Shown: positions 31,452 through 40,600 of the stretch, piece after piece
How the letters are laid out: the number at the start of each line of letters is the position of its first letter
Numbering within the stretch: position 1 is the stretch's first letter
Source of the DNA: Bacteroidota bacterium
Lineage (GTDB): Bacteria > Bacteroidota > Bacteroidia > Palsa-965
Assembly: GCA_006218065.1 (NCBI GenBank)
Contig: VBWE01000010.1
Location: 1-64,000 of the forward strand
Length of the DNA: 64,000 nt
Direction: 5' to 3'
Position numbers and translations under genes: made by a program
Notes under the pieces: model-generated
The model's input: the letters and a program-made list of their open reading frames with translations, nothing else
Databases searched by the model: none
Told to the model about the DNA's origin: nothing

Positions 31452-32873
31452 TTACGCGATCTTCTCTATTAAACCTGTAATAGCAACTTTCTCCTGCTCC
31501 CCTGTTTTCATATTCTTCAGCATCACCACGTTTTCTTTCCGCTCGTTCTCCCCGACAATCGCCACAAAAGGAATTCCTTTCGCGTCTGCGTATTTCATTT
31601 GTTTCTGCATTTTTACCGCATCCGGGTAAAGCTCCGCAGCGATGCCTGCTTTACGTACCTGCTGCAAAATACTCAAACAGTATTCCTGGTCCGCTTCGCT
31701 GAATGTCACGAAAAGCAATTTGGTGGATGCGGAAACTTCTTCCGGGTAAAGGTTCAGTTCGTTCAGCACATCGTAAATCCGGTCGGCGCCGAACGAAATA
31801 CCCACGCCGGAAAGATTCGGCAGACCGAAAATACCCGTCAGGTCATCGTAACGCCCGCCGCCGCAAATGCTGCTTTTTAGCGACCCTGCCAACGCCTTCA
31901 CTTCAAAAATTGCGCCTGTGTAATAATTAAGTCCTCGGGCTAATGACATGTCCAAAATGAGGTTGGGTATTTCCTTGGGATCCTTATCAATATATATTTG
32001 ACTCAAATAGCTAAAAATCTGATAGATTTCCTCAACGCCTTTTTTCCCAATTGGAACAGATTCAAACACATCCATTAGTTTAATCAAGGCAGACTTACCC
32101 TTACCTTCTTTATACAATTCTTGAACCTCAACAGCGAGGCTCATAAATTTCTGGAGTTTAGAAACAACCTCATCTGAAAAGCCCTTCTCTTTCAGCTCAG
32201 AATAAATTTTGTCTCCTATTTTTTCGTACTTATCAATTGCAATGACAATATCCATGAAACGATCTTTCTCGTTCACATATTCAGCAATTCCTGCAAGAAT
32301 TTTTCTATTGTTTATTTTTATTTCAACGGACACTTTCAGCACGGCGAAAACCTCATCGATAATCTGCACGAGTTCCACTTCGTTCAAAAGCGAATTGCTT
32401 CCGATCACATCCGCGTCGCACTGGTAAAACTCCCGGTAGCGGCCTTTCTGCGGACGGTCCGCACGCCATACCGGCTGAATCTGGTAGCGTTTAAAAGGAA
32501 ACGTAATTTCATTCTGATTCATCACCACGTAACGCGCAAAAGGAACAGTGAGATCGTAGCGAAGTGCTTTTTCGGAAATTTTATTGGTGAACGCACCGAA
32601 GCCCGCATTTTTTGCCGCAATAATTTCTTCGTCGTTTTTGAAATCGGATAAATAATTGGCAGAATTCAGAATCCGGAAAATCAACCGATCTCCTTCTTCC
32701 CCGTACTTCCCCATCAGCGTTTCGGTATTTTCCATCGCCGGCGTTTCAATCGGCAGATAGCCGTACTTTTTATACACCGAACGGATCGTATCGAAAATAT
32801 AATTCCGGCGCACCATTTCCTGCGGGGAGAAATCGCGCGTGCCTTTGGGAATGGAAGGCTTCTGCGTAGCCAT
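31452..32873 (-). CDS. hisS: histidine--tRNA ligase
   Basis: A 473-residue class II synthetase that charges tRNA-His. It starts [12 protein letters not shown], has motif 2 around [27 protein letters not shown] (106-140), the histidine signatures ARGLNYYTG and GGGRYDD, motif 3 with GISFGADRI, and a C-terminal anticodon domain ([13 protein letters not shown] onward). Residues about 178-317, mainly the insertion domain, are encoded by DNA of about 35% GC (31921-32340), while the flanks have 45-58%. The reading frame is intact and the motifs are all present. A mosaic gene formed by homologous replacement is the simplest reading. Confidence 0.96.
31921..32340. other. AT-rich block inside hisS, possible recombination tract
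   Basis: Counting each 60-base line gives 24, 18, 22, 21, 22, 19 and 19 G+C, together 145 of 420 (34.5%). The line after it has 27 of 60 and the next about 35. The change at the 32340 edge is sharp. Encoded residues are rich in K, I and E. Confidence 0.7.
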
Positions 32874-37917: not shown

Positions 37918-38403
37918 GTGAAAACAAGGACGCCAAAAACAGCCCCGGATTACCAACTTGATAAACTCGACCGGCAGATACTCCGCATCCTCGTCCGGGA
38001 TGCAACCATACCGTACACCGATATCGCCAAAGAACTTGTCGTTTCGGGCGGAACGATTCACGTCCGCATGAAAAAACTCCGGGAGATGGGCGTTGTAACC
38101 GGCTCGCATCTTTCCGTAAATCCTGCGAAACTGGGTTATGACATCACAGCATTCATTGGCATTTATCTCGATAAAGGCTCGGAATATCACGATGCCGTTG
38201 CGCGGATGAAAAAAATACCGGAACTGGTAGAACTGCATTACACGACCGGTTCATACAGCATGTTTGCCAAGATCATCTGCAAAAGCACGGAGCATCTCCG
38301 CCAGGTGCTGAACGAAAAAATACAAACGATCCGGAGCGTGGAAAGAACGGAAACCTTCATCTCGCTCGAAGAAAGTATCCGCCGGCAGGTAAGTATCGAT
38401 TAA
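37918..38403 (+). CDS. Lrp/AsnC-family transcriptional regulator
   Basis: A 161-residue regulator with a GTG start. Residues 12-65 form the helix-turn-helix (YQLDKLDRQILRILVRDATIPYTDIAKELVVSGGTIHVRMKKLREMGVV), and residues about 75-150 the RAM ligand-binding domain (GYDITAFIGIYLDKGSEYHDAV, VELHYTTGSYSMFAKIICKS, TFISLEES). Such proteins sense amino acids and often regulate the divergent neighbour and themselves; in E. coli AsnC controls asnA. Here the neighbour is the aaRS-like synthetase, so a role as an asparagine-responsive regulator is the natural inference. Confidence 0.93.
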   Translation: MKTRTPKTAPDYQLDKLDRQILRILVRDATIPYTDIAKELVVSGGTIHVRMKKLREMGVVTGSHLSVNPAKLGYDITAFIGIYLDKGSEYHDAVARMKKIPELVELHYTTGSYSMFAKIICKSTEHLRQVLNEKIQTIRSVERTETFISLEESIRRQVSID

Positions 38404-38474: not shown

Positions 38475-38507
38475 TTTGGAAATATGCATCATTCGTTTTT
38501 AGATTTG
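38475..38507 (+). promoter_or_regulatory. promoter of the Phe/Tyr leader and aromatic operon
   Basis: TTTG at 38475-38478, a 21-bp spacer, then TAGATTTG at 38500-38507: a full consensus match. The predicted transcript start near 38512 puts the leader ATG about 13 nt inside the RNA. Confidence 0.7.
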
Positions 38508-38524
38508 CAGCGATTCATACAACC

Positions 38525-38587
38525 ATGCAGAACAAACGCAACTATTTTTTCTTCTATTTCATCGGCACCCGGCGGGGCACGATATAG
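38525..38587 (+). CDS. phenylalanine/tyrosine leader peptide of an attenuator
   Basis: A 20-codon frame from ATG at 38525 to TAG at 38585. It reads MQNKRN, then YFFFYF (codons 38543-38560), then IGTRRGTI: six aromatic codons in a row. It starts just behind a consensus promoter and ends 33 bp before a terminator hairpin, upstream of pheA and a DAHP synthase-chorismate mutase. This is the architecture of the enterobacterial pheL leader, though the sequence is unrelated. Too short to be caught by ordinary gene finding. Confidence 0.85.
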   Translation: MQNKRNYFFFYFIGTRRGTI

Positions 38588-38620
38588 GAGATCTGTTGCA
38601 TAAACGATAACAATCACCGA

Positions 38621-38652
38621 AAGCGTCCCGGAAATACCGGGACGCTTTTTTT
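38621..38652 (+). terminator. attenuator terminator of the aromatic operon
   Basis: An 11-bp stem AAGCGTCCCGG / CCGGGACGCTT (38621-38631, 38637-38647), loop AAATA, followed by a T run to 38652. Its 5' arm GTCCCG (38625-38630) can instead pair with CGGGGC at 38573-38578 inside the leader frame (one G-U), which would be the antiterminator. Confidence 0.85.
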
Positions 38653-38678
38653 ATGTCCGTTTTCCAAAACAAACTATC

Positions 38679-39539
38679 ATGATCAGCACACAGACATTAC
38701 GCAGCATGAAGGTCGCTATACAAGGCAGCCCGGCATCTTTCCACGAAACCGCCGCACACCGGTATTTCGGAAAACGGATCGAACTGGTTTACTGCAAAAG
38801 TTTCCGCGAATCGTGCGGGATGCTTGCCGGTAACCAGGTGGATTACGCCGTGATGGCCATAGAGAATACGATTGCGGGCGCGATCCTGCCCAATTATGGA
38901 TTGCTGCATGAACTCGGCCTGCACATTTTCGGTGAAACGCAGATCCCGGTCCGGCTCAGCCTGCTGGCGCTTCCCGGCAGTTCCCTGCATGAAATCGAAT
39001 TCGTGCTTTCACATCCCGTTGCGCTGCGCCAGTGCACGCGCTACCTCGCCGGGCTTCCGCACCTCGTGCTGCAGGAAGGACCGGATACGGCATCCTGCGC
39101 ACGTACCGTTGCCGGGAAAAAACTCGCTTTTACAGCAGCCATTGCCACCGCCGAAGCCGCTCCGCAGTATGGGCTGGATATCCTCGCGACGCGTATCGAA
39201 GATCACGCAGAAAATTTTACGCGCTTCTGGATCCTTTCGAAAGGCAGAAATCCCGCGCCGGATGCCGACAAAGCAAGCGCCTGTTTCCTGCTTCCGCACC
39301 GGGGAGGAAGTCTCGCAGACCTGCTCTCCGAACTCGCGGCAACAGGCGTCAACATCCAGCGGATCCAGTCACTGCCGGTAGCCGGGGATGCTTCGCAGTA
39401 CCGCTTTTTCATCGACTTCAGTTGGTCAGAAAGCGGCTGTTATGAAAATGCGCTGGCCGCACTTTACCGGCATTCCGCACAAATGCGCGTACTCGGGAAA
39501 TACAAATCAGGAGAGATTTTGAAAACGACAAAAACATGA
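38679..39539 (+). CDS. pheA: prephenate dehydratase with ACT domain
   Basis: A 286-residue enzyme that turns prephenate into phenylpyruvate, the committed step to phenylalanine. MKVAIQGSPASFHETAAHRYFG starts the catalytic domain; the ATG at 38706 (first residue of that motif) is an alternative start. DYAVMAIENTIAGAI and the later NFTRFWILSKG hold the TRF-type catalytic motif. An ACT domain follows from about 200 (FLLPHRGGSLADLLSELAATGVNIQRIQSLP), which normally binds phenylalanine for feedback inhibition. The 3' end overlaps the next gene by four bases (ATGA). Expression is predicted to be controlled by the leader at 38525. Confidence 0.94.
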   Translation: MISTQTLRSMKVAIQGSPASFHETAAHRYFGKRIELVYCKSFRESCGMLAGNQVDYAVMAIENTIAGAILPNYGLLHELGLHIFGETQIPVRLSLLALPGSSLHEIEFVLSHPVALRQCTRYLAGLPHLVLQEGPDTASCARTVAGKKLAFTAAIATAEAAPQYGLDILATRIEDHAENFTRFWILSKGRNPAPDADKASACFLLPHRGGSLADLLSELAATGVNIQRIQSLPVAGDASQYRFFIDFSWSESGCYENALAALYRHSAQMRVLGKYKSGEILKTTKT

Positions 39540-40600
39540 ATACGACGAAAATATTATCCGCTGAAAATACCGGCGCAGGCAAACAACCGCTGCTCATTGC
39601 CGGTCCGTGCAGCGCCGAAACCCGTTCGCAGACGCTCGGCACGGCACAAGCCATTGCCGCGCATTTCCCGGATGCGATTTTCCGCGCAGGTATATGGAAA
39701 CCGCGCACCCAACCCGGAAGTTTTGAAGGCGTTGGCGTCACCGGGCTCGAATGGCTGCGCGCGGTGAAACTGAAGACCGGCCTGCGCACCGCCACCGAAG
39801 TAGCCAACGCCGCGCACGTGGAAGCCTGCCTCGAACATCAAATCGATTTGCTGTGGATCGGCGCACGGACGACGGTCAACCCGTTTTCCGTCCAGGAAAT
39901 TGCCGATGCGCTGCGCGGAGTCGATATTCCCGTGCTGATCAAAAACCCGGTGCATGCCGATCTTGCTTTGTGGATCGGTGCGCTGGAACGGTTGAGCCGC
40001 GCTGGAATAAAAGAGCTTGGTGCGATTCACCGCGGTTTTCACCAAGCGGATACGCAACCCTTCCGAAACGCGCCGCTCTGGGAAAAACTCGTGGAACTGC
40101 GCACGCGCTGCCCGGAAATTCCGGTGATCTGCGACCCAAGCCATATCTGCGGGAATACTGCGCTGATTCCGTACGTATCGAAACATGCGCTGGACCTGGG
40201 GCTGGACGGACTGATGATTGAAACGCATATCGTTCCGCAGCAGGCTTTGAGCGACGCCGCGCAACAACTTACGCCCGCGGAATTGCAGATGCTGGTCAGT
40301 CAACTGCGCCTGCGTTCCAAAACATCACCTGCCGACGATTTGCTGCAAAACCTGCGCGGGAAAATAAACCGCACGGACGAGCAACTGCTGCGTTTGCTTT
40401 TCGAGCGCATGAAAATTTCGAAAGCCATCGGGAATCACAAACAGCAGCGGAACCTGGCCATCGTGCAGCCTTCGCGCTGGGAAGAAGTGCTCGGGCAGCA
40501 ACTGCAGCTGGCCGACGCGCTCGGACTGAAGCCGGATTTCGTGAAAGAAATTTACACGCTCATCCATGAACAATCGGTGAAAGAGCAGATGGATGATTGA
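39536..40600 (+). CDS. bifunctional DAHP synthase / chorismate mutase
   Basis: A 354-residue fusion. Residues 15-260 are the DAHP synthase of the KDO8P-like type (LLIAGPCSAET, FRAGIWKPRTQPGSFEG, LWIGARTTVNPFSVQEIADAL, DPSHICGN, IETHIVP), which joins PEP and erythrose-4-phosphate. Residues about 265-345 are an AroQ-type chorismate mutase (LRGKINRTDEQLLRLLFERMKISKAIGNHK). In Bacteroidota such C-terminal mutase domains carry the feedback signal to the synthase. Together with pheA it covers the first and the branch steps of phenylalanine synthesis, and its start overlaps the pheA stop. Confidence 0.95.
   Translation: MNTTKILSAENTGAGKQPLLIAGPCSAETRSQTLGTAQAIAAHFPDAIFRAGIWKPRTQPGSFEGVGVTGLEWLRAVKLKTGLRTATEVANAAHVEACLEHQIDLLWIGARTTVNPFSVQEIADALRGVDIPVLIKNPVHADLALWIGALERLSRAGIKELGAIHRGFHQADTQPFRNAPLWEKLVELRTRCPEIPVICDPSHICGNTALIPYVSKHALDLGLDGLMIETHIVPQQALSDAAQQLTPAELQMLVSQLRLRSKTSPADDLLQNLRGKINRTDEQLLRLLFERMKISKAIGNHKQQRNLAIVQPSRWEEVLGQQLQLADALGLKPDFVKEIYTLIHEQSVKEQMDD

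Follow-up and report, generated by a model that had tools for sequence, protein, structure and literature searches.

The pheA gene of the bacterium studied here is preceded by a short open reading frame (ORF) rich in aromatic codons and by a hairpin followed by a run of T, and the locus raises the question of whether these parts regulate pheA together and what they would sense. We analysed the region in its window, the whole stretch of DNA of 64,000 nt, and in related genomes. The results indicated that the element is very probably a ribosome-mediated transcription attenuator of the pheA operon. The mechanism is a classical one, known from pheL, trpL and hisL.

Organization of the pheA leader region

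The features of the locus are listed in Table 1. The first-pass annotation had described a consensus promoter with 21 nt between its boxes, a 20-codon frame with six aromatic codons in a row, a terminator hairpin with a T run, and an operon of pheA and a DAHP synthase-chorismate mutase gene; direct reading of the sequence, translation and the protein domains confirmed each of these, and all of its coordinates were correct. The intrinsic terminator (38620-38652) sits between the leader ORF and pheA, the first structural gene. The stretch 38512-38660 had a folding energy of -46.7, compared with -29.0 +/- 3.3 for shuffled sequences (z = -5.3; 0 of 200 shuffles). CGGGGC of region 2 and GTCCCG of region 3 are complementary with one G-U pair. 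Counted from its first base, the last aromatic codon lies 15 nt before the start of region 2, which in turn begins 12 nt ahead of the stop codon.

Table 1. Features of the proposed pheA attenuator locus and of the hydroxylase leader in the same genome
Feature	Position	Strand	Evidence
Promoter, Bacteroidota type: TTTG (-33 box, 38475-38478), 21 nt, TAGATTTG (-7 box, 38500-38507)	38475-38507	+	Sequence
Leader peptide ORF, 20 codons, MQNKRNYFFFYFIGTRRGTI and stop; ATG at 38525, TAG at 38585-38587	38525-38587	+	Sequence, translation
Region 1, six control codons TAT TTT TTC TTC TAT TTC (Tyr-Phe-Phe-Phe-Tyr-Phe)	38543-38560	+	Sequence
Region 2, CGGGGC, antiterminator 5' strand	38573-38578	+	Sequence, folds, cross-species permutation
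Region 3, terminator 5' arm; GTCCCG (38625-38630) doubles as antiterminator 3' strand	38620-38631	+	Sequence, folds
Region 4, terminator 3' arm (38637-38648) and U-run (T7, 38646-38652)	38637-38652	+	Sequence, folds
pheA, prephenate dehydratase, regulated gene 1	38679-39539	+	PF00800, 170.9 bits, 3e-50
DAHP synthase-chorismate mutase fusion, regulated gene 2	39536-40600	+	PF00793, PF01817; 4-nt overlap with pheA
Lrp/AsnC-type regulator gene, adjoining the attenuator on its upstream side	37918-38403	same strand as pheA	PF01037, PF13404
Hydroxylase leader L181	G000:C43, upstream of the PF00351 gene at 31803		Terminator and antiterminator

In the mechanism that we propose, transcription would start some 10-15 nt upstream of the leader ATG, and the leader would then be translated by a ribosome. 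If charged tRNA-Phe or tRNA-Tyr were scarce, this ribosome would stall on codons 7-12, region 2 would lie outside it and pair with region 3, and the terminator would be blocked, so that RNA polymerase would continue into both pheA and the DAHP synthase-chorismate mutase gene. With Phe and Tyr both plentiful, the ribosome would reach the stop codon at 38585 and cover region 2, regions 3 and 4 would form the terminator, and transcription would end at about 38652. On a leader free of ribosomes, region 2 would be sequestered in a hairpin formed with region 1, and the terminator would form too.

Conservation across the class Bacteroidia

We searched 396 genomes from this class for PF00800 (pheA) and took upstream DNA from 113 loci. 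A leader was accepted if an ATG-started ORF of 8-45 codons contained at least five aromatic codons in eight, and the second criterion was a hairpin with a T-run at most 110 nt after this ORF. Leader ORF, hairpin and T-run were found together at 88 of the 113 loci, in 20 of 28 families, while the same test found 2 of 113 on the reverse strand and 0 of 113 in shuffled sequence. The aromatic-rich short frame and the terminator, which the first-pass annotation had suggested seeking upstream of pheA in related Bacteroidota, are thus kept in most of these relatives, and the pheA attenuator is widespread in the class Bacteroidia. Its proposal of a phylum-specific leader has to be narrowed: in other classes of the phylum such a leader was present at 0 of 50 pheA loci, and within this sampling the element is specific to the class. 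The combination of position, ORF, hairpin, pairing and their conservation far exceeds chance, and a chance origin was ruled out by the reverse-strand, shuffled and other-class controls.

Under the criteria used, 25 of the 113 loci carry no leader, and whole families lack it (0 of 8 loci in f12, 0 of 4 in f66, and also f21); four named MAG relatives likewise have no pheA leader. At about 9 of these 25 loci pheA lies directly behind another gene, so that a leader adjoining pheA is not expected there; a close upstream ORF on the same strand occurs at 0 of the 88 leader-bearing loci. The promoter was counted on an earlier set of 84 leaders, in which TAnnTTTG lies at most 80 nt upstream of the leader ATG in 48 of 84 relatives, compared with 20 of 420 shuffles, and 43 of these 48 also have TTG in the -33 region. 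The peptide sequences vary widely and are poorly conserved outside the aromatic run.

Two aromatic leaders in series, each with its own terminator, were observed at seven pheA loci (L037, L088, L117, L126, L127, L132 and L143), which belong to all three f47 genomes and four others. At L132, L037 and L117 the first U-run is soon followed by the start of the second leader, and no promoter-like site separates them. Within the family of the window's genome, pheA was undetected in four nearly complete genomes (G002, G003, G006 and G007).

Antiterminator pairing and alternative folds

For each locus, we formed the duplex between the sequence beyond the last aromatic codon and the 5' arm of the terminator at that locus. 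The mean energy of the region 2:region 3 duplex was -15.3 kcal/mol for native pairs and -9.7 kcal/mol after swaps between families (z = -16.8 in an earlier set, before strand correction). Related genomes are not fully independent, and kinship was addressed by a permutation test with one locus per family, in which 0 of 20,000 permutations reached the native mean. From family to family the paired words are very different (GCCGGGACT/AGTCCCGGC, GAAGCGGGA/TCCCGCTTC, GGCAGGA/TCCTGCC, GGGAGGG/CCCTCCC and CGAGACCT/AGGTCTCG), which reveals compensatory change and not a single conserved word. The antiterminator that had been put forward as a candidate from the letters of one genome is therefore maintained by covariation in its relatives.

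The spacing of this pairing was also examined. Counted from the first base of the final aromatic codon, the start of the region-2 helix lies 12 nt or more downstream in 84 of 95 leaders; relative to the stop codon, it falls between -18 and +12 nt in 66 of 95. Given the footprint generally known for the ribosome, this spacing suggests that a stalled ribosome would leave region 2 free and that a terminating ribosome would usually cover it. Predicted folds of the free RNA of the window followed the course that the first-pass annotation had expected: a ribosome placed at codon 7 or 12 led to the CGGGGC:GUCCCG antiterminator, and one at the stop codon to the terminator. With no ribosome, region 2 was predicted to be closed in a protector hairpin with region 1. 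For the full transcript at equilibrium, the terminator was predicted to be favoured in every state, including that with a stalled ribosome, and the core of the window's antiterminator is just 6 bp, one of them G-U. Because the terminator is the more stable structure in every state once region 4 has been made, the switch must act kinetically, during transcription. Known attenuators likewise act while the RNA is being made. Both the sequence and the predicted folds contain an antiterminator that excludes the terminator and would be freed by stalling on the control codons. Judged by sequence and modelled folding, the pheA element is a ribosome-mediated attenuator in every feature that could be tested.

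Alternative explanations

The same evidence bears on other readings of the locus. The hairpin might be the terminator of the upstream Lrp/AsnC-type gene and the aromatic ORF a product of chance, since this gene shares the orientation of pheA and its end is 217 nt from the hairpin, and six-codon aromatic runs alone are common, with 34 pattern matches genome-wide vs 35 in the reversed control. However, a promoter and an ORF intervene between this gene and the hairpin, and both the repetition of the whole layout at 88 of 113 loci and the covariation of leader and terminator arm argue against an upstream-gene terminator; we regard this explanation as extremely improbable. The regulator encoded by the adjoining gene could also control the pheA promoter, with attenuation secondary or absent. 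It may provide a second layer of control, and two layers can coexist, as do TrpR and trpL in E. coli, but control by this protein would leave the leader, the terminator and the covarying antiterminator unexplained, and we consider it quite unlikely to be the main mechanism.

Another scenario places control at the translational or post-transcriptional level, with a leader peptide that acts in trans or is coupled to pheA, and with a constitutive terminator. Leader peptides acting in trans are known, such as peTrpL of Sinorhizobium (PMC7298713). Three observations speak against this scenario: the poor conservation of the peptide beyond the aromatic run, the distance of about 90 nt from the leader stop to the pheA start, with a terminator between them, and the covariation, which links the sequence of the leader to the arm of the terminator. 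This scenario is very unlikely.

Phe and Tyr codons in the pheA leader

Phe and Tyr codons are mixed in 95 of 95 pheA leaders, whose dense eight-codon windows contain 332 Phe, 296 Tyr and 20 Trp codons. Bacteroidia with this layout probably sense shortage of both amino acids by a stalled ribosome; E. coli does likewise for phenylalanine, with an unrelated sequence. In the genome of the window, tyrA was undetected, as PF02153 (prephenate dehydrogenase) gave no match in a search that was positive in 14 of 14 control genomes, and a pterin-dependent aromatic amino acid hydroxylase (PF00351) is present. Because tyrA was undetected and this hydroxylase has a Tyr-only leader of its own, PheA output probably supplies Tyr too, which offers an explanation for the Tyr codons of the pheA leader. 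The simplest reading of these sequences is that Tyr would be made from Phe, with the hydroxylase answering to Tyr and pheA to both.

A Tyr-only leader upstream of the hydroxylase gene

The hydroxylase attenuator of the same genome, absent from the first-pass annotation, has the Tyr-only leader MNTQHNNYYNYYPVPLEPAGTALLR, followed by GAAGCCCGGTTCC-GAT-GGAACCGGGCTTC-T7, and GGAACCGG of the leader is complementary to CCGGTTCC in the terminator. Tyr-only leaders with terminators precede 20 of the 49 short-form hydroxylase genes of the class, and for long-form hydroxylases (about 590 aa) from other families no Tyr leader was convincing. Of the hydroxylase leaders, 2 of 22 include Phe in the control-codon window, compared with 95 of 95 pheA leaders (Fisher 1e-20), a contrast that lies in the lack of Phe, as the hydroxylase leaders were picked for their Tyr content. 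The pairing test was weak with the terminator stem alone (223 of 5000), and gave 0 of 5000 with the apical loop, where the antiterminator reaches, a result that depends on a post hoc choice because the loop was added after seeing the data. In G003, in which pheA was undetected, the Tyr-leader hydroxylase (L234) is kept, as if Tyr were made from imported Phe.

These observations point to a likely two-tier system of aromatic attenuation in Bacteroidia, in which a bispecific Phe and Tyr leader, sometimes two in series, would control pheA, and a Tyr-only leader would control the hydroxylase as a regulated enzyme of Tyr biosynthesis. The hydroxylase, often viewed as catabolic, would thus be marked as a tyrosine-synthesis enzyme, in agreement with mutant fitness data from Echinicola vietnamensis (Bacteroidetes), which give it a biosynthetic role (PMC7311316).

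Relation to known attenuators

A gathering-level search found no Rfam family at cut-off anywhere in the window, T-box included. In a relaxed search, Phe_leader (RF01859) was the best of the five matches listed, covering the full model length in the leader region with 22.9 bits (E = 0.11), where the cut-off is 55 bits. By score, the element is not a member of this family. The suggestion that it evolved independently of enterobacterial pheL is likely from this score, though it falls short of proof because RF01859 is still the best match. Both systems regulate pheA through a leader peptide with aromatic codons and a four-region terminator/antiterminator; the element described here differs in its mixed Phe/Tyr control codons, its peptide and RNA sequence, its Bacteroidota-type promoter and its occurrence in the class Bacteroidia. 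Bispecific or multispecific leaders are known from thrL (Thr/Ile) and ilvL of E. coli, in which, as here, one leader reads more than one amino acid dependent on the operon, but the amino acids (Phe/Tyr), the genes and the phylum are different. T-box riboswitches of amino acid genes in Firmicutes likewise sense tRNA charging, and the window element has no Rfam T-box match.

Within the phylum, according to a transcriptome analysis of Flavobacterium psychrophilum, there are strong clues to leader-peptide attenuation upstream of amino acid operons, and pheA and hisG are preceded by structured 5' elements without Rfam match that are common to other Flavobacteriaceae genera (PMC9723704). These elements concern the same genes in the same phylum; the main-text passages give no leader sequence, pairing or codon logic, and beyond them we traced the pheA element through 20 families with covariation and found its Tyr-only hydroxylase sister. 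A Bacteroides map mentions leader-like short ORFs (PMC7366714). In the literature searched, which mostly left out subscription papers, we found no description of the Phe/Tyr code, of pheA leaders in tandem or of a Tyr leader before the hydroxylase gene, nor of ribosome-mediated attenuation by tyrosine or of attenuation of this hydroxylase. A comparative study of attenuation in bacteria by Lopatovskaya et al. (2010), cited in PMC4833913, may contain related predictions. Our results indicate that ribosome-stalling attenuation is a main means of controlling aromatic amino acid synthesis in a large class in which it has been little described, and whose control of this kind is absent from Rfam; many unannotated leader peptides are gained, 95 before pheA alone.

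Trp and His leaders in the same genome

Two further leaders with terminators were found on the minus strand of contig G000:C19, namely MKTIINKHWWWHTEANQLAG upstream of trpE (L182), with WWW, and MKRFFHLHHHVVFPAR upstream of hisG (L183), with HLHHH. Their presence suggests that leader-peptide attenuation is a general habit of this bacterium. The antiterminator of the trp leader was no better than shuffles (168 of 500). The 3' end of the his leader, CGGTAAGCC, spans the stop codon and repeats the terminator 3' arm, which yields a clean and strong antiterminator with GGCTTGCCG (-18.0; 20 of 500 shuffles). Leader codon content tracks the gene product, with Phe and Tyr for pheA, Tyr for the hydroxylase, Trp for trpE and His for hisG, and this match could be used to assign pathway roles from sequence alone. 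A tRNA-Trp(CCA) gene, detected by ARAGORN, and a long inverted repeat lie between the trp terminator and trpE.
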